64,000 nt of DNA, taken from assembly GCA_900467685.1 (NCBI GenBank), contig UBQX01000029.1, positions 62,001 to 126,000 of the forward strand. Direction: 5' to 3'. Position numbers and translations under genes: made by a program. Under the pieces are notes generated by a model. It was not told the origin of the DNA and made no database searches. It saw nothing but the letters and a program-made list of their open reading frames with translations. The stretch comes from Hyphomicrobiales bacterium. Its GTDB lineage: Bacteria; Pseudomonadota; Alphaproteobacteria; Rhizobiales; Rhizobiaceae. This document shows, one piece after another, positions 37,700 through 48,587 of the stretch (the first letter of the stretch is position 1; the number at the start of each line of letters is the position of its first letter).

Positions 37700-37724
37700 C
37701 TGTCTTTCCGGAATGGAGCATAGA

Positions 37725-38828
37725 GTGAACGCAGTGGCAGAACATGCGAGCCCCGCAGCAGGTGCATCGCGCATTGGCGGACGTCTTGAACTGGACGGCC
37801 TGCGCCGGTCCTTCGGCGCCTATAATGCGCTGGCAGGCATCGATATCGCCATCGAGCCGGGCGAGTTCATCGCGCTGCTCGGCCCTTCGGGCTGCGGCAA
37901 GTCGACGGCGCTCAACTGCATTGCCGGACTGCTGGAACTTACCGGCGGCGAAATCCGTCTCGGCGGCCGCCGCATCGACCAGCTGGAGCCGGAAAAGCGC
38001 GGCTTCGGCATGGTGTTCCAGAGCTATGCCCTGTTTCCGCATATGAGCGTGCGCAAGAATGTCGGCTTCGGCCTTGCCATGCAGGGCATCAAGGGACCGG
38101 AGGCGGAGAAGCGAATCCGCGATGCACTTGCCATGGTGCGCCTCGAAAGCCAGGCCGACAAGCTGCCGGGGCAACTTTCCGGTGGCCAGCAGCAGCGCGT
38201 GGCCATCGCGCGCGCCATCGTCATCCGTCCGCCCATCGTGCTGATGGACGAGCCGCTTTCGAATCTCGATGCCAAGCTGCGTCTGGAAATGCGCGCCGAA
38301 ATCCGCGCCATCCACGACCAGATCGGCTCCACCACCATTTACGTGACGCATGATCAGGACGAGGCGTTGTCGCTGGCCGACCGCATCGTCGTCATGAGCC
38401 AGGGCCATATCCAGCAGGTCGGCACGCCGGAAGAGCTCTATCAGCGGCCGGTCAATCTCACTGTCGCCGATTTCATGGGCTTCCGCACCCGCATGCCCGG
38501 CCGCATCGTCTCGGTGACCGGCGACGAGGCCGAGATCGAGGTCGATGGCAGCCGCTTCGACGGTCTGGTGCGCGAAAGCCTGCAGGCCGGCCAGAGTGCG
38601 GTTCTCGCCATTCGCCCGGAAGACCTTGTTGCCAGCGCTACAGGTCCGGGAATTGCCGCGACCGTGGTCAGCATCGAATATCGCGGCCGCGCCTTCTTCG
38701 GCCTGGCGCGCACCGCTGCAGGGGCGGAGCTCTATTTCCGCGCCGACGAGCCGCTGTCGCGCGGGTCTGCCGCTTATCTGTCGCCGGCGCCCGGCCGTGC
38801 GCTGATCTTCCGGGACGACGTGGCATGA
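37725..38828 (+). CDS. ABC transporter ATPase (PotA/UgpC type)
   Basis: A 367-residue ATPase with Walker A GPSGCGKS, Q-loop MVFQSYALFPHMSVRKN, signature LSGGQQQR, Walker B IVLMDEPLSNLDAKLR, switch YVTHDQDEALSLADR and a TOBE tail (LAIRPEDLVAS, VVSIEYRGRAFF). GTG 37725 is chosen because GGAG lies six bases before it; the ATG at 37713 has no ribosome site. The first permease overlaps its stop by four bases. Confidence 0.94.
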   Translation: MNAVAEHASPAAGASRIGGRLELDGLRRSFGAYNALAGIDIAIEPGEFIALLGPSGCGKSTALNCIAGLLELTGGEIRLGGRRIDQLEPEKRGFGMVFQSYALFPHMSVRKNVGFGLAMQGIKGPEAEKRIRDALAMVRLESQADKLPGQLSGGQQQRVAIARAIVIRPPIVLMDEPLSNLDAKLRLEMRAEIRAIHDQIGSTTIYVTHDQDEALSLADRIVVMSQGHIQQVGTPEELYQRPVNLTVADFMGFRTRMPGRIVSVTGDEAEIEVDGSRFDGLVRESLQAGQSAVLAIRPEDLVASATGPGIAATVVSIEYRGRAFFGLARTAAGAELYFRADEPLSRGSAAYLSPAPGRALIFRDDVA

Positions 38829-39706
38829 GCGCGCCTTCGCTCCGCAGCCGGCTTGCAGCGCAGGGGATCGACGGCACGACGCTGCTCCTGCTGCCGGGGC
38901 TCCTCTTCATCCTCGCGCTCTTCATCTACCCCTTCGCCTTCGGGGTGATCGACTCGCTGCGGCCGAAGGATGGCGGGGCGTGGTATGCGAATTATGCGAA
39001 ATTCTTCGGCGATCCCTATCAATACGGCACCATTGCCGCGACGCTGTGGCTGGCTCTGCCGGTCACGATCGTCAATCTGGCGCTGGCCGTGCCGATCGCC
39101 TTCCGCGTTCGCCTCATGCGCCGGCAACGCCTGCTCACCACCATCCTCGTCCTGCCGATCACGCTGGGCACGGTCTTCGTGGCCGATGGGCTGCTGACCT
39201 TTCTCGGGCCTCGCGGCTGGTTCAACCATGTGCTGATGCTGCTCGGCATCCTGCATGAACCGCTGAAGCTCACCAACAATTACTGGGGTGTCTTCGCCTC
39301 GCTGCTGATCACCGGCTTTCCCTTCGCCTTCCTGCTGACGCTCTCCTACGTTTCCGGGATCGATCCGGCCATCGAGCAGGCGGCGGCGACGCTCGGGGCG
39401 GGGGCGCGCCAACGGTTTCAGCGCATCTTCCTGCCGCTGCTCGTGCCGGGGCTGGCGGTCACCTTCTGCCTGTCCTTCGTGCAGGCCTATGCCGTCTTCC
39501 CCTCAGCCGTCCTTCTCGGCGCACCCGCCGGCCCGACGCGTGTCATTTCGATCGCGGCCTATCAGGCGGCCTTCGAGCAATATGATCACTCCATGGGCTC
39601 GGCGATCGCGCTCGTCATGGGCGGCGTCGAGCTGGTCGTGGTCGTGCTGGTTCTGGCACTGCGCTCCCTCTTCTATCGCGGCCCGGCCGGCGGCACGAAA
39701 GGTTGA
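38825..39706 (+). CDS. ABC transporter permease, PotB type
   Basis: A 293-residue inner-membrane protein with six predicted spans, beginning with TLLLLPGLLFILALFIYPFAFGVIDSL. The EAA loop is IEQAAATLGAGARQRFQRIFLPLLVPGLAVTFCLSFV. It starts within the ATPase stop and precedes the second permease by four bases. Works with the binding protein at 36475. Confidence 0.95.
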   Translation: MSAPSLRSRLAAQGIDGTTLLLLPGLLFILALFIYPFAFGVIDSLRPKDGGAWYANYAKFFGDPYQYGTIAATLWLALPVTIVNLALAVPIAFRVRLMRRQRLLTTILVLPITLGTVFVADGLLTFLGPRGWFNHVLMLLGILHEPLKLTNNYWGVFASLLITGFPFAFLLTLSYVSGIDPAIEQAAATLGAGARQRFQRIFLPLLVPGLAVTFCLSFVQAYAVFPSAVLLGAPAGPTRVISIAAYQAAFEQYDHSMGSAIALVMGGVELVVVVLVLALRSLFYRGPAGGTKG

Positions 39707-39710
39707 TCCG

Positions 39711-40553
39711 ATGATCCGTGACAAGGGCCTCGCCTCGAAACTCTGGCGCTTCGCCATCTGGGCCGTCGCCGGCCTCTTCGTCCTCAATCTCGCTGGCGTG
39801 ATAGCCGTCGTGATCATCAACTCTTTCGCCACCCGCTGGCTGGGCACCTGGCTTCCGGCCGGTTGGACGACGCGCTGGTATTTCGATGCCTGGAGCGAGT
39901 TCCAGCTGTCGGATGTGGTTCTGGTGACCTTCGAGATCGTCTTCACCGTGACGATTCTGTCCGGCCTGCTCGGTGTCGTGACGGCCTATGCGCTGGCGCG
40001 GCGCGATTTTCCGGGCAAGAAGATCGTCGTTCTCCTCTTCCTGCTGCCGCTCCTCATCCCGACGCTGACCTACGGCATTCCACTGGCGACAGTGCTCTAC
40101 CAGTTCGGGCTCGGCGGTACGTTCTGGGGCGTGGTGCTGATCAACCTCGTGCCGTCCTTCCCCTTCGTCGTGCTGGTCATGATCCCCTTCATCGAGCAGA
40201 TCGATCCGCGCATCGAGGCCGCCGCACGCGTCTTCGGGGCAGGGACGACGAGCCTGTTCCTTCGCATTCTTCTACCGCTCTTGTTGCCGGGCATGCTCGC
40301 CGCGCTGCTTCTCGTGCTGGTCCGGGCGCTTGCGATGTTCGAACTGACCTTCCTCGTCGCCGGCCCGACGACGCAGACGCTGGTCGTTTCGCTCTATTAC
40401 GCCGTCTTCGCCTCGGGCGTACGCGCCGCGCAGTCCATCGACGCGATGGCGGTCATCTACATGGTCACGACCCTGTTCTGGCTGGTGATTGCCTTGCAAT
40501 TCGTCAACCCGACACAGATCGTCACACGCGCCAAGCAGCAATCGGCGCATTGA
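39711..40553 (+). CDS. ABC transporter permease, PotC type
   Basis: A 280-residue inner-membrane protein with six spans (WAVAGLFVLNLAGVIAVVIINSFATRW..., IVVLLFLLPLLIPTLTYGIPLATVLY) and EAA loop IEAAARVFGAGTTSLFLRILLPLLLPGMLAALLLVLV. ATG 39711 lies just after the first permease stop; the frame is open far upstream but there it overlaps that gene. It is the last gene of the four-gene transporter operon. Confidence 0.95.
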   Translation: MIRDKGLASKLWRFAIWAVAGLFVLNLAGVIAVVIINSFATRWLGTWLPAGWTTRWYFDAWSEFQLSDVVLVTFEIVFTVTILSGLLGVVTAYALARRDFPGKKIVVLLFLLPLLIPTLTYGIPLATVLYQFGLGGTFWGVVLINLVPSFPFVVLVMIPFIEQIDPRIEAAARVFGAGTTSLFLRILLPLLLPGMLAALLLVLVRALAMFELTFLVAGPTTQTLVVSLYYAVFASGVRAAQSIDAMAVIYMVTTLFWLVIALQFVNPTQIVTRAKQQSAH

Positions 40554-40714
40554 TGCGCCGGCATCGCGATTGCTGATCAGATTTGAGGAAGCCGTGGCCT
40601 GGCGCGGAATGGATGCGGGCAGCGGAGCACACGATCGATAGGAAGCAACCCTTCCATGAGGTGCAGCCACATGTGATGGCCGATCACCTCAGGACCAGAA
40701 GATCGGGTAAACGG

Positions 40715-40948
40715 TCAGCAGTTTCCGACTTTGCTGCTGACGAGGGAAGCGAGCATGACGCTCGAAATATCCGTCTTCATGCCGTCCTTGAGGACGCCCG
40801 CGAGTTCCTGTGCGGCGCTGGACAGATAATAGATGGTGTTCTCCAGCTTCATTTCGTCGGCAATCGCCTGCGCGTAGATGATCATGTTCAAAAGCGCGAT
40901 CATCTCGCCGGTGCTTTCGTTTTCTTCAGGACGGGTGGCAGTTCGCAT
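40715..40948 (-). CDS. small hypothetical protein downstream of tfuA
   Basis: A 77-residue protein from ATG 40948, or 87 residues from ATG 40978; neither start has a clear ribosome site. It is mostly helical by composition (GEMIALLNMIIYAQAIADEMKLENTIYYLSSAAQELAGVLKD) and ends ...VSSKVGNC with a C-terminal Cys. I recognise no family. It is on the same strand as tfuA and about 115 bases downstream, so it could be part of the YcaO cluster, perhaps as a binding or accessory protein. This is based only on position. Confidence 0.5.
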   Translation of the reverse strand: MRTATRPEENESTGEMIALLNMIIYAQAIADEMKLENTIYYLSSAAQELAGVLKDGMKTDISSVMLASLVSSKVGNC

Positions 40949-41061
40949 GGGGAGGATTCCAAATTGTTGTATCCTCATATTGTCAGAGCCCAGATCGATT
41001 TGCGCGTTGCAGAACCGTTGCACACGCAGGAGGCGCCATGACGAGCAACCACAAGGCTGTT

Positions 41062-41769
41062 TTAGCAATCTACGTTATATAGGCTGCGCCAGAGCGGTGT
41101 CTGATTGAAACTCCAGTCGCGCTTCGCCTCCGGTTCCGTCGCCGGATCAAGCGCCGCCATTGCAGTAACCAGTTCCATCGCGTCCAGCCGTTTTTGGTCC
41201 ACCCAGGCCTCGGCCACAACCGCGTGCAAGGCTTCGAACGCCATGCCCGCGGTTTCCGCGACTTGTCGCCATGTCCGGTCCTTGAAGAAGAGGCGCCTCG
41301 CCGCGAGGGAAATGCTTTCACAGTTGCCCTGTGGCAGAAGGCCCAAGGTCTGGGCGCGCTGAAGTGTTGCGTCCACGTTGACGAGCGGGATCGAGAGCGG
41401 GGCATATTTAAGTTCGCGCGGGGCATGCAGGAGGGCGACATCGCCATCGTCCCATCGCCGGCCTGTCCTGTAGTCCTCGTAGATCTGGCCAATCCCGATC
41501 ATTCCGAATGCCGCGCATTCAACCGCCCGGAGGGCGCCCATGCTGGAGGCTCCGAGAACGGGAACGCCCTGGGAAAGCGCATAGAGGATTTCCTTGTGCC
41601 AGACCGGGGCGACAAACTCGAACTGACCGTCGATCAATCCAATGGCCTTCGCCCCGTCCTGCAGCGCCTTCATGATGTCACCCTGCGTCGCAGGCGGCAG
41701 GATATTAGTGTCGCCGGAGGCCATTTCAGAGGCGTCCGGAAGACTGGGCCCGGCAAAAACGACTTTCAT
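41062..41769 (-). CDS. tfuA: TfuA-like YcaO partner protein
   Basis: A 235-residue TfuA-family protein, recognisable by MKVVFAGPSLP at the start, ILPPATQGDIMKALQDGAKAIGLIDGQFE, the core VWHKEILYALSQGVPVLGASSMGALRAVE and GMIGIGQIYEDYRTGRRWDDGDVALLHAP. TfuA proteins accompany a subset of YcaO enzymes and are needed for backbone thioamide formation, probably by supplying sulfur; the family name comes from the trifolitoxin locus of Rhizobium. It overlaps the ycaO gene by four bases (ATGA), so both are made together. No McrA gene is present, so the target must be another polypeptide, most likely the 85-residue peptide encoded upstream. Confidence 0.95.
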   Translation of the reverse strand: MKVVFAGPSLPDASEMASGDTNILPPATQGDIMKALQDGAKAIGLIDGQFEFVAPVWHKEILYALSQGVPVLGASSMGALRAVECAAFGMIGIGQIYEDYRTGRRWDDGDVALLHAPRELKYAPLSIPLVNVDATLQRAQTLGLLPQGNCESISLAARRLFFKDRTWRQVAETAGMAFEALHAVVAEAWVDQKRLDAMELVTAMAALDPATEPEAKRDWSFNQTPLWRSLYNVDC

Positions 41770-42968
41770 CGGAGGCTCCTTGAAATCGCCCGGCTCCCGA
41801 GGCTTTGCCGGCGGTCGCCTTCAGGATTTTCGAGCTCGGGCGCGACGACCTTGACGACACTGACCGGCAGCCAGGCGGGCTGCAGATCGACGGCATAAAG
41901 TTTTCGAATCCTGGCACGCCGCAGTTGCTCGATAACCACCGACAGGCCCTCGGCGGAATTCGTGGCGTCATGCCTCGGCAAATCCTCGCAGCTGGCCCTC
42001 GGTGCAGCCTCGAAGGCCTTCAAATGGCTTTGATCGGCGGGACGGGCGAAAATCTCCGGGACCAGATCATCGCGCGCACCGCCGATGAAGGTCATTCTGG
42101 ACTGCACCGCCTCTGAAATCGCTCGGGCTACCGCCACGGCAGGATCGAGCGAGGCGCCCGCGCCCAATGTCAGGTCGACATGGCGAAGCGGACGTGGAAA
42201 TTGCGTCTGCCGGGGTTTCAGAAGGGCTGCGGCGACGGCGATCCCGATATCCGTCGTAATGTCGAAAAGTGCCAGTTCCAGCCCGGCCCGCTCGATGCGG
42301 TCAAGCATCTCCTTGACGCTGCCCGGCTGCCAGACACCATCGAGCTGCATACGTCTGACAAATCGAGTCCGGCTCGGCTCGACGCTCCACAGCGTCAGCG
42401 CGTCCCGTTCCACGCGTTCAAGAAGGCCATGAAGCCGCGCTTCGTCCCGCTCATTTCCCGATGCAAGACCGTCCGAGGAGCGCCAGTAACGAGGCTTCTT
42501 AACCGTGCGATCGAACGAGATTGCATCGAACGGCAGCCAGACAGGATCTCCTCCCATGAGATCGGCCGCTTCGACCCACGCCGTTTCCTCATCTTCGCCG
42601 AGCGGCAGTTGGCCGGATGAGAGCAGGCTGTCGATGCTGTCAAAGCGTGCCGCCCCGCCCTGCAGGACGCTCTTGCATGTCAACACGGTCTTACAGGCCG
42701 GTTCCGTTGCAACAGCGCGCTCTACCCCCTCCATGGCGGCTGACGTTCTCGCCTCTGCATCGCTGAGCCCCTTGCCCTGCGCAATCACGATGGCCTTGGC
42801 ATTGGGGGCGTAGGCACACCAGACAGGCAGCCCGACATTGTCGAGCCCTGTCTGGCTTGCCACCCTCGTGATTCCCAATCGGGAAAGATGAGGGCTTATT
42901 TTCTCGAACGTCTCTTCCGGCGAACAGGCACGAAAGAGGCTGGTCGATGTTGGCCGGTCAGCCTTCAT
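41766..42968 (-). CDS. YcaO-domain peptide-modifying enzyme
   Basis: A 400-residue YcaO enzyme, which uses ATP to activate a peptide-backbone amide for cyclodehydration or thioamidation. Motifs for ATP/Mg binding are in place: SAAMEGVERA, ARLHGLLERVERDALTLW and ISEAVQSRMTFIGGARDDL. The C-terminus ends ...NPEGDRRQSLGSRAIS without the PxPxP of azoline-forming YcaOs, which together with the adjacent TfuA points to thioamidation. ATG 42968 lies inside the last codons of the repeat-peptide gene (11-base overlap), so it should be translated by re-initiation. Upstream in-frame starts lie deeper in that gene and are rejected. Confidence 0.95.
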   Translation of the reverse strand: MKADRPTSTSLFRACSPEETFEKISPHLSRLGITRVASQTGLDNVGLPVWCAYAPNAKAIVIAQGKGLSDAEARTSAAMEGVERAVATEPACKTVLTCKSVLQGGAARFDSIDSLLSSGQLPLGEDEETAWVEAADLMGGDPVWLPFDAISFDRTVKKPRYWRSSDGLASGNERDEARLHGLLERVERDALTLWSVEPSRTRFVRRMQLDGVWQPGSVKEMLDRIERAGLELALFDITTDIGIAVAAALLKPRQTQFPRPLRHVDLTLGAGASLDPAVAVARAISEAVQSRMTFIGGARDDLVPEIFARPADQSHLKAFEAAPRASCEDLPRHDATNSAEGLSVVIEQLRRARIRKLYAVDLQPAWLPVSVVKVVAPELENPEGDRRQSLGSRAISRSLR

Positions 42969-43215
42969 GCAGACCCGAGGCAACCTCGTGAAGCCCGTTT
43001 GCCACCTCGTGCAGCCCGGCAGCCGCTTCGCTGGCGGTTGAGACTGCAATTGCAAAATCGACGCCCTTGACCACGGTCGCCCCGACCTTTCTCAGAGCAG
43101 CGGTCTTGGCGAGGTCGCCTTCAGTGCTTTCGAAAGGGGTGACGGTGCCCGATTTCAGATCCACCATCCACAGCCCGTCCTCGCCTGTGATCCCGATTAC
43201 AACAACCTTAGCCAT
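42958..43215 (-). CDS. putative repeat-bearing precursor peptide of the YcaO-TfuA cluster
   Basis: An 85-residue protein with a strong ribosome site (AAGGAG, six bases) before ATG 43215. Residues 1-60 form a compact, mixed alpha/beta-like leader (MAKVVVIGITGEDGLW..., LKSGTVTPFES, LRKVGATVVKGVDFAI). Residues 65-85 are three consecutive heptads of the form Ala-X-Gly-Leu-His-Glu-Val/Gly. It has no Cys, and the repeats have no Thr. Its stop overlaps the ycaO start. The layout (leader plus repeated tail, directly before a YcaO gene) is what a ribosomal peptide precursor would show. I recognise no named family; the precursor role is inferred. Confidence 0.75.
   Translation of the reverse strand: MAKVVVIGITGEDGLWMVDLKSGTVTPFESTEGDLAKTAALRKVGATVVKGVDFAIAVSTASEAAAGLHEVANGLHEVASGLHEG
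42961..43023 (-). repeat. three tandem 21-base (heptapeptide) repeats at peptide C-terminus
   Basis: Residues 65-71, 72-78 and 79-85 read AAGLHEV, ANGLHEV and ASGLHEG. The DNA differs at synonymous positions (CTGCACGAG, CTTCACGAG, CTGCATGAA), so the peptide sequence rather than the DNA seems to be conserved. Confidence 0.9.
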
Positions 43216-43228
43216 CACTATCTCCTTG

Positions 43229-45052
43229 TTAAAAACCAGCCTTCAAAAGGCCCTCGCGATAAAGTTCAGTCTGCCATGATTCCTTGTGAGGGATCATGGC
43301 CAGCCATTTCTCCACATCAAAATCGGGATTGTCGCGCATCACCTTCAATCTGCACGCGCGCGCTTTTGCTGCATTGCCGAGCATTCCCCAACAGGCCGCA
43401 GCCAGTCGCGATGCCGGGTTTGGATCGCGCATACGCTCGATATGGGAAAGCGCACGCTCATGTTCGCCCAGGAAGTAGCTCGCACCCGCGGCAGTCCACA
43501 GATACGTGTCCGGGCTGAGCGGGTTCAGCTCCATGGCGGCCATGATTTTCTCGTAGGCTGCATCCGGCCTGCTTCCGTGATTGAGACTGTCGGCATAGCT
43601 GCATAGGGCGTCGGCATAATGAGGGCTCACGGATTCGGCGCGTTTCAGCGCATCCAGGCTCTCGTCAATCTTGCCCATATAAAGCTGGCTCACGCCCAGT
43701 TCCTTCAGTGCACCGGAGCATGTCTCATCCCGATCCACTGCAGCCGACGTCAGGCGCTCTGCCTCAAGCAGGAGCTCCGTATCGCCGCGAGCGGTCAACA
43801 CCCACTCCAGGCTCAGTGTCCTGGCGACGCCGGCGAGCCCCAAGGCGAAGCCGCGCTGGTGGTCCAGCGCCTCGCGGAAATATCTCCGCGCCCTTCTGAC
43901 GGAAGGCAAGCTGACGCTCGAGAGGCTGCGCAGACCCCTCAGATAGGCAAAATAGGCCTCGGGACTGGCCTGGAAATCCACGGTCTGCGCCGCCTTCTGT
44001 TCGACACGCTGCGCAATGACGGAACGGATCATATCCGCAATTTGCCGCCTCTGCTCCAGCAAGCCGTCGGGGGTCACGGCAAATCGTGCTGCCCAGATTA
44101 CCTCGTCGGCGGGCAGGAAAATCAACTGTGCGAACAGGTAGTCACCCGACCGCCGCGTATCGAGCGCGAAATGCACCTGATGGCGTCTCAAGGCTTCGGC
44201 CTTGTCTCGAGCGGCCTTGATCTGCTCGGACGTGTAGGGAGCAATGACGGAGACCGACCGGCTGGCACAGAGATCGATCGTCAGATCCTCGATCAGGGCG
44301 TTGGATACCGACTGCTGCTTGACCGCCAATCCGCTTTCGTCCGGCGGCAGGAGTGCCAGACGCGGAGGCAGGCTCGCTGTCCCGGCATTTCCGGCGCCTT
44401 CCGTGCCAGCGTCGCGCAGATAGGCGTCGGCCATCACCCTTGCTGTGGGACGTGGGCTGGAAACTGCCGTGGTACCGTGCAACAGGCGCGCCCGGACATC
44501 TTCATCCTCTGGATTGTGCTCGAGCAGGACGAAGGCTGCACGCTTTGCTGCGGACTTGGTGGCTTCATCGTCTTGCGCCTTCGTCGCCTCGAAGAAGGCC
44601 TGGCGCAACGCCACCAGCATCCGGTTTCGCACATCTCGCACCCAGAGGTCCAAGCGCTCGGAACCTTGCCCATACGAGGGCAGGAACTGTTTGGTTACCC
44701 GGTCCGACAGGGCAGCAAGATCGGTTGCGGGTGACACGGGAGACAGGATGTCGATCTCGCATTCGACCACGCCCTGCCTGATCGACACATGCCGGTCATC
44801 GACATCGAGAAGGTGCTCGCCTTCAGCCGGAAGCGCATTCGTCAACCGGCGAAGCAGCGAGCGCAGATTGGTGGGTGCGGCTTCCCTTGCGTGAGGCCAC
44901 AGGAACTGCGCCAGTTCCCGGCGGCTGACAGGACCTCTTTGATCGTGAAGATAGGCCAGCAGCGCAATCGAGAGGTCGGGAACCCGCAAGGGTTCGCCCG
45001 TATCCGGCCGCAGGAGTTGAGCGGCGCCAAATGTGACGAGCTTATATCTCAC
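43229..45052 (-). CDS. SARP-like winged-helix regulator with TolB-like and TPR domains
   Basis: A 607-residue soluble regulator. Residues ~1-100 form a winged-helix DNA-binding domain of the SARP/OmpR kind (LSIALLAYLHDQRGPVSRRELAQFLWPHAREAAPTNLRSLLRRLTNALP). Around 230-340 is a TolB-N/FlgO-like domain (LALLPPDESGL..., LIEDLTIDLCASRSVSVIAPYTSEQI). From ~370 are several TPR-like helix pairs (AYFAYLRGLRSLSS, GALKELGVSQLYMGKIDESLDALKRAE, AACWGMLGNAAKARACRL). It overlaps the XRE gene by four bases and precedes the repeat-peptide gene by 13 bases, so it probably activates this cluster. The sensed signal is unknown. Confidence 0.85.
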   Translation of the reverse strand: MRYKLVTFGAAQLLRPDTGEPLRVPDLSIALLAYLHDQRGPVSRRELAQFLWPHAREAAPTNLRSLLRRLTNALPAEGEHLLDVDDRHVSIRQGVVECEIDILSPVSPATDLAALSDRVTKQFLPSYGQGSERLDLWVRDVRNRMLVALRQAFFEATKAQDDEATKSAAKRAAFVLLEHNPEDEDVRARLLHGTTAVSSPRPTARVMADAYLRDAGTEGAGNAGTASLPPRLALLPPDESGLAVKQQSVSNALIEDLTIDLCASRSVSVIAPYTSEQIKAARDKAEALRRHQVHFALDTRRSGDYLFAQLIFLPADEVIWAARFAVTPDGLLEQRRQIADMIRSVIAQRVEQKAAQTVDFQASPEAYFAYLRGLRSLSSVSLPSVRRARRYFREALDHQRGFALGLAGVARTLSLEWVLTARGDTELLLEAERLTSAAVDRDETCSGALKELGVSQLYMGKIDESLDALKRAESVSPHYADALCSYADSLNHGSRPDAAYEKIMAAMELNPLSPDTYLWTAAGASYFLGEHERALSHIERMRDPNPASRLAAACWGMLGNAAKARACRLKVMRDNPDFDVEKWLAMIPHKESWQTELYREGLLKAGF

Positions 45053-45495
45053 TGGCGGTCCGCGGAGAGTGCGGAAAGCCCTTCCGCAGCATGGCCGCCA
45101 TCACGCCGGTCGGATGCAGCTAGTGCATCAACGAGGTCCACGACCTTTTGGCGGATTTGCGGGTCCCGGATGGCGCTGAAGCTGTTGGCCAGCGACAGAA
45201 ACTCCTTCGAAGCCAGCACGTTCGACAGCGAGTGGGCTTCCTGCTTTTCTATTTCGTGATCAAGACCGCGAGAGGCCTCCTCGAAGAAGAAGGAAATCGG
45301 TGCGCCGAGCACTTCCGCAATCCGTTGAAGCCGGCTTGCGCCCACACGGTTCACGCCCTTCTCGTATTTCTGGACTTGCTGAAACGTTACCCCCAGATGC
45401 TCCCCGAGCTTCTCCTGGCTCATGCCGAGCGCCATACGGCGTTGCCGAACGCGCGATCCGACGAGCTGGTCGATCGGGGTTGATTTCTTTTGCAT
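45049..45495 (-). CDS. XRE-family transcriptional regulator
   Basis: A 148-residue protein. The helix-turn-helix lies at about residues 10-66 (LVGSRVRQRRMALGMSQEKLGEHLGVTFQQVQKYEKGVNRVGASRLQRIAEVL) and a helical C-terminal part follows (FLSLANSFSAIRDPQIRQKVVDLVDALA). This form is common in rhizobia. ATG 45495 has GGAGGT upstream. First gene of the cluster and overlapping the SARP-like gene, so likely the entry regulator or autorepressor. A perfect palindrome at 45595-45607 lies 100 bases upstream. Confidence 0.93.
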   Translation of the reverse strand: MQKKSTPIDQLVGSRVRQRRMALGMSQEKLGEHLGVTFQQVQKYEKGVNRVGASRLQRIAEVLGAPISFFFEEASRGLDHEIEKQEAHSLSNVLASKEFLSLANSFSAIRDPQIRQKVVDLVDALAASDRRDGGHAAEGLSALSADRQ

Positions 45496-45738: not shown

Positions 45739-45952
45739 CCGAATGACGCCCTTGCGTCGAGAAGATTTGGGTCTGTCGCCGTGAGGCAGACTGTGCAGGG
45801 CACGCCATTTCTCTGTCAGCCCTGAAACCGGAAATGCTGCATAAGATTTCGATCCGTGACGCCAGACCGGAATTTTCTGCCGTCGCCGGGCAAACTGCGG
45901 TTCCGCGTGCGCAGAACAATCGCCTAGTGTGGGTCTATACATGGAGACACCA

Positions 45953-47275
45953 ATGCCCGCACCATTGACCCTGATCGAGACACCTTCGAACCCGCCGCAA
46001 GAGGCCGACGTCGTCGTCATCGGGGGCGGCATCGTTGGATCGTTCACGGCTTATTTCCTGGCGCAGCGCGGGCTGAAGACCGTGCTGCTCGAGAAAGGCC
46101 GTATCGGGGCGGAGCAGTCGAGCCGGAACTGGGGCTGGTGTCGCCAGCAGAATCGTGATGCGCGCGAGCTTCCGATCGCGACCAAGAGCCTCGACCTCTG
46201 GGAACGCTTCGTGGCCGAAACCGGCGAGGATATTGGCTTTAGCCGCTGCGGCCTCCTCTATCTGAGCAACAATGAAGCCGAAATTGAAGGCTGGGCGCGC
46301 TGGCGCGACTTTGCCAGGACTGCCGGCGTGACGACCCATATGTTGTCATCCGCCGAAGCTGCCGAAAAGGGGCGGGCAACGGGCCGCTCCTGGAAAGGTG
46401 GTGTCTTCTCGCCAACCGACGGCATCGCCGATCCTTCCAAGGCGGCTCCGGCCGTGGCGCGTGCCATCATGAAGCTTGGCGGCACCGTTATCCAGAACTG
46501 CGCGGCGCGCGGCGTGGAGACCGAAGGCGGCCGTCTGAGCGCGGTCGTCACCGAGAGAGGCACGATCCGCACGAAGATCGCGATCCTCTCCGGCGGGGCA
46601 TGGGCCTCCTCGTTCTGCCGACAGCTGGGCATTCGCTTCCCCCAGGCCTCGATCCGCTCCTCCATCGTCACCGTTTCGGGCGCAGCGGGCATTCCGCCGG
46701 CGCTGCACACAAAGGACATTTCGGTTACAAGCCGCAGCAATGGCGATTACACGCTTTCGATCAGCGGCCGCGCGCGCGTCGATCTCACGCCCCAGCAGGT
46801 GCGCTTCCTGCCGCAATTCCTCCCCATGTTCCTCAAGCGTTGGCAACTGCTTTCCCCCGGAGGCATCGAAGGCGTTCGAAGCGGGCATGAGACGCTGTCT
46901 CGCTGGCGGCTCGACCGTCCAACTCCGATGGAACGCATGCGCATCCTCGATCCGAAGCCAGACCAGGGCACGCTCCGTCTCATACATCAGCGTGCGCTGG
47001 ACCTGCTGCCGGACTTGAAGAGCACAAGGATCACAGGCACCTGGGCCGGCTATATCGATTCCACGCCGGACGGCGTGCCGGGCATCGGGGAAATCGAAAG
47101 CCTGCCGGGCTTCATCCTTGCCGCCGGCTTTTCCGGCCATGGTTTCGGCATCGGTCCGGGTGCCGGCCATCTGATCGCCGACATTGCATCCGGCGCGGAA
47201 CCCATTGTCGATCCGAAACCGTACCATCCATCCCGCTTCGCGGCTTCGGCCTGGGGCAAGGTCTCCGAGTTTTAG
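45953..47275 (+). CDS. FAD-dependent oxidoreductase, DAO family
   Basis: A 440-residue flavoprotein of the D-amino acid/sarcosine oxidase (DAO) family. The N-terminal Rossmann motif is VVVIGGGIVGSFTAYFLAQRGLKTVLLEK, then SSRNWGWCRQQNRDARELPIA. The C-terminal closure GFILAAGFSGHGFGIGPGAGHLIADIASG is typical. Substrate is probably an N-methyl or D-amino acid. ATG 45953 follows GGAG by six bases; ATG 45941 and GTG 45929 lack as good a site. No signal peptide. Divergent from the YcaO cluster and convergent with lhgO. No functional link to either is evident. Confidence 0.92.
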   Translation: MPAPLTLIETPSNPPQEADVVVIGGGIVGSFTAYFLAQRGLKTVLLEKGRIGAEQSSRNWGWCRQQNRDARELPIATKSLDLWERFVAETGEDIGFSRCGLLYLSNNEAEIEGWARWRDFARTAGVTTHMLSSAEAAEKGRATGRSWKGGVFSPTDGIADPSKAAPAVARAIMKLGGTVIQNCAARGVETEGGRLSAVVTERGTIRTKIAILSGGAWASSFCRQLGIRFPQASIRSSIVTVSGAAGIPPALHTKDISVTSRSNGDYTLSISGRARVDLTPQQVRFLPQFLPMFLKRWQLLSPGGIEGVRSGHETLSRWRLDRPTPMERMRILDPKPDQGTLRLIHQRALDLLPDLKSTRITGTWAGYIDSTPDGVPGIGEIESLPGFILAAGFSGHGFGIGPGAGHLIADIASGAEPIVDPKPYHPSRFAASAWGKVSEF

Positions 47276-47390: not shown

Positions 47391-48587
47391 CTAGTTGCCC
47401 ATTGAACGCAGCCTTGCGGCGATCATCTCGGCAATGGGGATTGCCGAGGTTGCGGCCGGGGAGGGAGCGTTGCAGACATGCAGCGTTCTGTCCGTCTGGG
47501 CGAACAGAAAGTCATGCACGAGGGAGCCATCCGCCCTGACGGCTTGAGCTCTGATGCCGGCTTCGTGTGGCAACAGGTCGCTGAGCCGCAGTTCGGGGCA
47601 ATATTTTCGGCACTCTTCGAGATATCCCGGCTTCCAGAGTGAATTTCGAAGTTCCGTCACGGCCGAACGGCGATTGGCAAAGACCGTTTTCCAGAATCCG
47701 GGAAACAACGCGTAATCCATCACATCCGAAAGATTGAACGACAGCTGCGGATAGCCTTCGCGGGAAAATCCAATCACCGCGTTCGGACCCACCGTGACAC
47801 TGCCGTCGATCATGCGGGTCAGGTGCACGCCGAGAAAGGGGAGGGACGGATCCGGGACGGGATAGATCAGGTGCTGAACGATTTGGTTCTTGTCTGAGGG
47901 CAACCGATAATATTCGCCGCGGAAGGGGACGATCCGGAAGTCCATGGCGAGGCCGGCCAGGCGTGCGAGGCGGTCGGCCTGAAGTCCGCCGCAGACAATC
48001 AACTCGTTGGCCTGCCAGCTTGCACCTTCGCCGTTAACTTCCACGCAGTCGATCTTTTCGCGAATGCCGGTGACGGGGGTCGAAAGACGTATCTCTCCAC
48101 CGCCGGCGATGATGCGCTCGCCCATCTTGCGGCACACATCGAGATAGCTGACGATACCGGTCGAAGGCACATGGAGAGCACCCATGCCGATAATGTTGGG
48201 CTCCCGCTCGACCAACTCTCCTGCGGAGAGGCGATGCACTTCGATCGTGTTCTGCCTCGACCTCTCGAAAAGTGCGTCCATACGCACCACCTCCTGATCC
48301 GAGGTGGCGACGACGAGCTTGCCGCACACGTCGTAGCGGATGGAATTCTGCTCGCAGAATTCCTTGGTCGCGATGGCCCCCTTGCGGCAGAGTTCCGCCT
48401 TCAGGCTTCCGGGCGCGTAGTAGATGCCGGCGTGGATGACGCCGCTATTATGACCTGTCTGGTGCTTCCCGAGCGAAATTTCCTTTTCCAGGAGGATGAG
48501 GCTGCTGCCGGGCCGGGCGTCGAGAAGGCGCATGGCGGTCGCAAGTCCGACGATGCCGCCGCCAATAATGCAGTAATCGTATTTCAA
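47391..48587 (-). CDS. lhgO: L-2-hydroxyglutarate oxidase
   Basis: A 398-residue FAD enzyme that oxidises L-2-hydroxyglutarate to 2-oxoglutarate. It shows YCIIGGGIVGLATAMRLLDARPGSSLILLEKE, the LhgO signature GKHQTGHNSGVIHAGIYYAPGSLKAELCRKGA, IVPFRGEYYRLP and PFLGVHLTRMIDGSVTVGPNAV. Normal length. Located alone, tail-to-tail with the DAO oxidoreductase. The 311 bases upstream (48588-48898) hold no supportable gene and separate it from the ABC permease. Confidence 0.93.
   Translation of the reverse strand: MKYDYCIIGGGIVGLATAMRLLDARPGSSLILLEKEISLGKHQTGHNSGVIHAGIYYAPGSLKAELCRKGAIATKEFCEQNSIRYDVCGKLVVATSDQEVVRMDALFERSRQNTIEVHRLSAGELVEREPNIIGMGALHVPSTGIVSYLDVCRKMGERIIAGGGEIRLSTPVTGIREKIDCVEVNGEGASWQANELIVCGGLQADRLARLAGLAMDFRIVPFRGEYYRLPSDKNQIVQHLIYPVPDPSLPFLGVHLTRMIDGSVTVGPNAVIGFSREGYPQLSFNLSDVMDYALFPGFWKTVFANRRSAVTELRNSLWKPGYLEECRKYCPELRLSDLLPHEAGIRAQAVRADGSLVHDFLFAQTDRTLHVCNAPSPAATSAIPIAEMIAARLRSMGN

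Follow-up and report, generated by a model that had tools for sequence, protein, structure and literature searches.

The 64,000-nucleotide window analysed here, a stretch of contig UBQX01000029.1 from a Hyphomicrobiales bacterium, carries on its minus strand a cassette of six genes that encode, in this order, an XRE regulator, a SARP/TPR regulator, a precursor peptide, YcaO, TfuA and, behind an operator, a small helical protein. The locus exemplifies a cassette that is conserved in the Rhizobiales and shared by many root-associated bacteria. We read it as a self-contained system for a ribosomally made peptide that is equipped with its own output switch, including a thioamidated core that is sensed by the TPR part of the regulator, and we give this reading as a whole a probability of about one half. 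In this scheme, sulfur would pass via TfuA to YcaO, which would place a backbone thioamide in the neighbouring precursor, within its short C-terminal core, probably at a conserved (A/S)-G step and once per core unit, with the N-terminal leader guiding YcaO. The SARP/TPR regulator would bind a direct repeat with an 11-bp period and activate the small helical gene, the modified core would be sensed by the TPR part of this regulator, and the small protein would be the output.

A conserved cassette in the Rhizobiales

A scan for YcaO in the named genomes gave 243 relatives, and the locus counts given here use the best 80 of them, which biases the set towards close relatives; start codons in the relatives were set by script. 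Going by their names, all 80 loci come from Rhizobiales. On the same strand and near YcaO, the peptide is found at 77 loci, the regulator at 77, XRE at 75, the small gene at 72 and TfuA at 68, and the complete six-gene set is present in 61 of the 80. The peptide family is confined in a similar way. Of 101 relatives searched with the peptide, 10 have a homologue, and the presence of the peptide in its own genus is patchy (2 of 6 genomes). At the level of the order, its profile matches 30 of 397 genomes; in a class sample of 385 genomes it matches the window's own genome alone, and in a phylum sample 6 of 398, all of them of the window's own family. Plasmid records gave 45 matches to the family, all in genera that are Rhizobiaceae by name and none outside the order.

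The association was also examined starting from the peptide, at 38 distinct places (a partial one, G452:C10:56098, was left out). YcaO adjoins the peptide at 33 of these, is absent at 4, and at 1 the contig ends; the peptide family is thus not one that occurs mostly without YcaO and TfuA. The regulator adjoins the peptide at all 38 places, including the four lacking YcaO. All four genomes concerned have YcaO and TfuA elsewhere, and two of them (G008 and G014) also carry a complete second cassette.

In the window, the XRE-family helix-turn-helix regulator (148 aa; 45049..45495) is followed by the SARP-like regulator (43229..45052), the peptide (42958..43215), YcaO (400 aa; 41766..42968) and TfuA (235 aa; 41062..41769), all on the minus strand. 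The initial annotation had described these five genes with overlaps of 4, 11 and 4 bases, and both order and overlaps were reproduced from the open reading frame (ORF) coordinates; the overlaps are those of the regulator with XRE, of YcaO with the peptide and of TfuA with YcaO, respectively, whereas the regulator and the peptide are separated by a gap of 13 bases. Its family names for XRE, YcaO and TfuA were likewise borne out, by HTH_3 (1.3e-13), PF02624 (1.2e-64) and PF07812 (4.7e-41), the latter two above the Pfam cut-offs. The small gene of 77 codons (40715..40948, minus strand), which had been mentioned as an unknown gene that follows, is a real gene and no bystander: it is conserved as the sixth member of the cassette, with an operator of its own ahead of it. 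The 5.05-Mb genome that carries the window (contig C10) contains one YcaO and one TfuA.

Several loci deviate from the complete arrangement. Four of them (L125, L129, L148 and L149) have the regulator and the peptide without YcaO and TfuA; L148 retains XRE, the operator and the small gene, and the same genome has a complete second cassette with another operator type. At L071 and L114, the regulator and the peptide have been lost from between XRE, YcaO and the small gene (L114 also retains TfuA), as would result from internal deletions.

Clustering of the flanking ORFs of at least 90 aa in 8-kb flanks revealed no other family that keeps a fixed position from clade to clade; the larger groups in common are neighbours specific to a clade, besides one loose group, from 34 loci, whose positions are scattered over both strands. 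Genes for an ABC transporter (ATPase and two permeases; 37713-40576) adjoin the cassette of the window on the other strand and in convergent orientation, and they are likely unrelated to it because three genomes (G001, G004 and G005) hold them without the cassette. The cassette is also flanked by two FAD-dependent oxidoreductase-like ORFs, assigned by eye only, at 45929-47275 (plus strand) and 47391-48587 (minus strand). No clean empty site was found in sister genomes; the corresponding stretches of G001, G004 and G005 contain the permeases and neither the cassette nor the oxidoreductase.

The precursor peptide and its probable modification

The 85-aa precursor consists of a leader (residues ~1-62) and a core (~63-85) in which GLHE occurs three times, in keeping with its earlier description as a repeat peptide. 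The same anatomy runs through the family: the N-terminal leader is conserved, with the first 25 residues (MxxxVVxGxxGExGLWxxDLxxGTV) kept even in very divergent members, and it is followed by a short, variable C-terminal core, typically of the form (A/S)-G-x-hydrophobic-(D/E), in single or tandem copies. Tandem cores with 2 to 7 copies are present in 18 of the 108 distinct peptides and in several lineages, according to script counts from which one spurious row (L059) was dropped; counted by eye, L151 has 8 copies and L142 has 6. Apart from one Ser, the GLHE units of the window contain no Cys, Ser or Thr.

Compared with L143, a relative of the same genus, the ratio of nonsynonymous to synonymous substitution rates (dN/dS) of the peptide is 0.061, lower than that of any other of the six genes, and its core is identical in the two (dN 0, with 4 synonymous changes); the value for the small gene is 0.096. 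Conservation across loci together with these ratios rules out that the peptide gene or the small gene is a chance ORF. No Pfam or NCBIfam model matches the peptide above its cut-off. Its AlphaFold2 model has three strands and helices at moderate confidence (mean predicted local distance difference test, pLDDT, 76.7; predicted template modelling score, pTM, 0.49) and no significant structural neighbour. A leader with a fold like that of the RiPP recognition element (RRE) was considered and rejected, as the Foldseek top match, to lasso RRE proteins (5v1u), is not significant (E-value 0.47, TM 0.28); the leader has no PqqD-type Pfam match either.

The peptide is the best substrate candidate, because it is conserved beside YcaO, has a leader/core layout with a core that is repeated in several lineages, and has homologues that mostly occur with YcaO. 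In all likelihood it is the YcaO substrate, as the initial annotation had proposed. Two loci (L045 and L053) have two different precursor genes in tandem ahead of YcaO. In three others (L151, L152 and L142), the middle of the leader is lost and the tail consists of long repeats of AASH-aromatic-aromatic units, where the modified step may be Ser-His instead of Gly.

Concerning the chemistry, the nearest solved relative of YcaO by sequence is MJ1094 (6pe3; 1e-36) and that of TfuA is 6xp8 (1.8e-28). The best NCBIfam matches of both enzymes are the models for McrA-glycine thioamidation, TIGR03266 and NF033432, at scores below the equivalog cut-offs (213 versus 365 and 176 versus 235, respectively). 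These matches favour thioamidation over azoline formation without proving it, and judged from such sequence relationships the modification is probably a thioamide. TfuA has been described as a hydrolase acting on a ThiS-like thiocarboxylate carrier, from which it obtains sulfide, and one YcaO is described as thioamidating uL16 without TfuA (PMC13063428). McrA itself is ruled out as the target: PF02249 has 0 matches in the window's genome, while the same search detects mcrA in two methanogen controls, which extends the earlier statement that no mcrA is present to the whole genome.

The operator ahead of the small gene

The gap that separates TfuA from the small gene holds the direct repeat TGCAACG-N4-TGCAACG with an 11-bp period, in the window as TGCAACG-GTTC-TGCAACG (41005..41022, minus strand), which we regard as a putative operator. 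Perfect 7-base direct repeats of period 11 are present in 45 of 59 dereplicated gaps versus 0 of 59 control stretches taken from the coding region upstream; no other period from 8 to 25 rises above 4 in the gaps, and the controls reach at most 6 at any period. The 23-base extended pattern matches the window's genome once, exactly, within 0-3 mismatches. A reversed-pattern control also gives one match in this genome, and in the window alone 7 operator-pattern matches at up to 3 mismatches compare with 7.7 expected by chance, so that only the exact site is meaningful. No wider regulon emerged in this genome within the same 0-3 mismatches. Across 8 genomes the exact site occurs 9 times, once per cassette (in G014 at the copy without YcaO) and once more in G021. 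This extra site precedes a second small-family gene (4.5e-26), located next to an XRE gene (2.4e-38) in a 9-kb stretch with no peptide, YcaO or regulator. As both exact sites of G021 precede small-family genes, exact sites and small-family genes go together outside the full cassette too. The extra locus (L184:4195-5456, G021:C15) looks like a satellite or a remnant of the cassette. Four one-mismatch sites were seen in other genomes.

A candidate -10 region (40977..40984, minus strand) lies about 20-22 bases past the operator, weak in the window and clearer in relatives. A -10-like hexamer is found 21 or 22 bases past the repeat in 38 of 71 distinct promoters, in a scan made without a shuffle control, and 12 of the 71 have no candidate at two or fewer mismatches.

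The regulator that may act at this site (607 aa, GTG start) is composed of an OmpR-type DNA-binding domain, BTAD, a middle domain and TPR. For the window protein itself the SARP label has little backing, Trans_reg_C scoring below the cut-off (E-value 0.17); among 37 members of the family, Trans_reg_C is recognised in 2 (best 1.5e-4), BTAD in 2 (best 8e-4) and a TPR model in up to 31. In a tree of 107 regulators, those with TGCAACG sites group in one region and those with TTTCACG sites in one clade. Among the 607 columns, the half-site classes are best told apart by 27, 65 and 68, with 65 and 68 ranking second and third, and these two lie within the segment that aligns with what we take, from the fold, to be the OmpR/SARP recognition helix. 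Leaving out four regulators without YcaO, those with S65 have a TGCAACG site at 0-1 mismatches in 46 of 46 cases, those with K65 a TGTCACG site at 0-2 mismatches in 41 of 44, and those with Q65 the predicted site at 1-2 mismatches in 6 of 13.

The period-11 repeat ahead of the small gene and the tracking of its half-site by residue 65 suggest that the regulator switches on the small gene, and it very likely acts at the operator on this gene. XRE is the less likely binder, because its best half-site-separating columns (103, 1, 123, 33 and 92) fall outside what we assigned as its recognition helix, and because the repeats are direct and not inverted; XRE does share clades with the SARP-like regulator. 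Upstream of XRE, no motif is common to more than 13 of 69 dereplicated regions. The stacked regulators of the initial annotation are both present, but, given the operator and the residue-65 association, they look like a dedicated switch for the small gene.

We set the start of the small gene at ATG 40948, giving 77 aa, since the alternative, ATG 40978, would lie inside the putative promoter. An iterated profile finds the protein at 94 of 113 loci that hold YcaO or the peptide; this profile grew on ORFs with the translated operator in their upstream extension, on which some matches lean, that of L058 wholly. Several loci without a match still show the operator. The AlphaFold2 model is a helical hairpin (residues 7-32 and 36-56, pLDDT about 88-97) with a disordered tail, and the protein has no significant fold or family match. 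It ends in GNC in the window; in the TGCAACG class, 32 of 41 listed distinct tails have a G-x-C end, and in other clades the last residue is H, Q or N.

A possible ligand, rival roles and known relatives

Distances between proteins were correlated over 64 loci with 999 permutations. The core of the peptide correlates with the TPR part given YcaO (r 0.245, 0 of 999), and the leader with YcaO given TPR (r 0.277, 0 of 999). This core-TPR correlation, the regulator standing beside the peptide at 38 of 38 places, and the small gene being the only evident target suggest a ligand role, and we put forward tentatively that the peptide could be the ligand of the regulator. Still somewhat more doubtful is the full circuit, in which a thioamidated core, often in multiple copies, would be read by the TPR half of a SARP-like activator that fires essentially one promoter, that of a helical effector.

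Several observations weigh against the reading of the cassette as a peptide system with its own switch. The core-TPR correlation is weak and the effects are small; the core shows a correlation with the DNA-binding domain as well (0.187), and the small protein follows YcaO given TPR (0.48, 0 of 999) but hardly TPR (0.056, 161 of 999). A clear site is missing at 3 of 44 K65 and 7 of 13 Q65 loci, the half-site classes are clade-bound, so that few independent switches lie behind the residue-65 link, which is strong but not independent evidence, and the repeat stands 21-22 bases from the -10 candidate versus 8 bp for SARPs. Flank clustering found no transporter or peptidase common to the clades, which leaves core release without a candidate. 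Finally, the pairing of YcaO with TfuA, which holds in the window and at 68 of 80 loci, fails at 12 of 80, where no TfuA lies next to YcaO: ten loci of Sinorhizobium/Ensifer (L072, L073, L078, L079, L081, L085, L090, L105, L106 and L120), L117 (Sinorhizobium) and L071 (Rhizobium). At L073 a TfuA lies nearby on the opposite strand, and in Ensifer G049 the TfuA sits on a contig without YcaO; from the latter, sulfur delivery in the Sinorhizobium/Ensifer cassettes may act in trans.

The same peptide chemistry could instead yield a product that is secreted as an antimicrobial or a competition factor, with the small protein as a co-induced immunity or self-control factor. The variation of the core between lineages and the patchy presence (2 of 6 own-genus genomes) fit a competition trait, the known YcaO/TfuA peptides include bioactive compounds, and thiovarsolin production did not depend on its transporter (PMC8120280), which makes a missing transporter not decisive. 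However, the flanks share neither a transporter nor a peptidase nor a recognised immunity gene, the operator lies ahead of the small gene only and not of the peptide, and regulator and peptide stay together where the enzymes are absent; we regard this role as unlikely, although it is the strongest of the rivals. The small helical protein could also be the main YcaO/TfuA substrate or an enzyme partner, with its conserved C-terminus as the site, in line with its tracking of YcaO, the prevalent G-x-C end and the retention of XRE, YcaO and the small gene at L071 and L114 after loss of regulator and peptide. Its C-terminus differs across clades (C, H, Q or N), it has no tandem core and a promoter of its own, and L148 and the second G021 locus have the small gene without YcaO, which makes this improbable. 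Formation of azoles or azolines (as in linear azol(in)e-containing peptides, LAP, or thiazole/oxazole-modified microcins, TOMM) or of amidines instead of thioamides is equally improbable: the YcaO family catalyses several reactions and this YcaO matches the SagD-family model TIGR03604 at 1.1e-30, below cut-off, but TfuA adjoins it at most loci, no dehydrogenase, E1-like or ocin-ThiF partner was seen among the shared neighbours (in the flank set described above, whose families were not named by hidden Markov models), and the GLHE units all but lack Cys, Ser and Thr.

The reading of a modified precursor with its own switch can be placed among known systems. Regulators of the RRNPP family in Firmicutes combine one XRE-TPR protein with an unmodified exported peptide. 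The cassette resembles them, in arrangement only, in that a TPR regulator is encoded beside a short peptide gene, and it differs in having a SARP-TPR protein plus a separate XRE, and a peptide beside modification enzymes. With the YcaO/TfuA system that thioamidates a glycine of McrA in methanogens it shares the closest NCBIfam models and the nearest solved YcaO, MJ1094, whereas the scores stay below the equivalog cut-offs and the genome has no mcrA. SARP activators such as AfsR have their 3' repeat 8 bp from the -10 (PMC10936776). Like AfsR-type SARPs, the regulator has an OmpR-type domain and BTAD (weak here), a C-terminal TPR, and direct repeats of 11-bp period near -35; unlike AfsR as described there, its host is alphaproteobacterial, it has an apparent single target, its middle domain has no NOD assignment, and its repeat is farther from the -10 candidate.

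The best functional precedent is thiovarsolin, from the cluster varAYTO, of which varA, varY and varT suffice for thioamidated peptides (PMC6511847). Its precursor, too, joins a conserved leader to a core that is repeated a varying number of times (0 to 5 in the thiovarsolin precursor). According to the same source, thiovarsolin is actinobacterial with the core APR/GPR, whereas the core of the Rhizobiales cassette is (A/S)-G-x-hydrophobic-(D/E), and the heme oxygenase-like VarO is absent from the shared neighbours of the latter.

The initial annotation could not assign the system to a known class, which was too strong. A survey reported 2,326 non-redundant "TfuA-related" clusters, over 500 of them in Rhizobium, and 797 precursor families (Malit 2021, PMC8120280), so that the genomic class is already known from a great many examples. 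As in the clusters described there for Proteobacteria, among which Rhizobium and Agrobacterium dominate, YcaO and TfuA are adjacent with short ORFs nearby; the precursor family, the operator, the TPR circuit and the sixth gene are not named in the portion of that account available to us. With 797 families in the survey, the peptide of the window may be among them unnamed. In open-licence PubMed Central, with subscription papers and supplements outside the scope, we found no description of the precursor family, the operator or the circuit. The precursor family and its regulatory circuit thus appear to be new within a known kind of YcaO/TfuA peptide clusters.

Such clusters abound in rhizobia, while all known TfuA-YcaO thioamidated peptides of this kind are, according to the survey, actinobacterial (PMC8120280). 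With a precursor family whose cores can be read, a reporter based on one promoter and natural knock-out-like variants that lack TfuA, YcaO or the peptide, substrate, product and role become directly testable in laboratory rhizobia. If the peptide is indeed the ligand of the regulator, this would give backbone thioamidation a signalling function, and the cassette would represent a peptide-sensing circuit of Gram-negative bacteria in which the signal is modified in its backbone.

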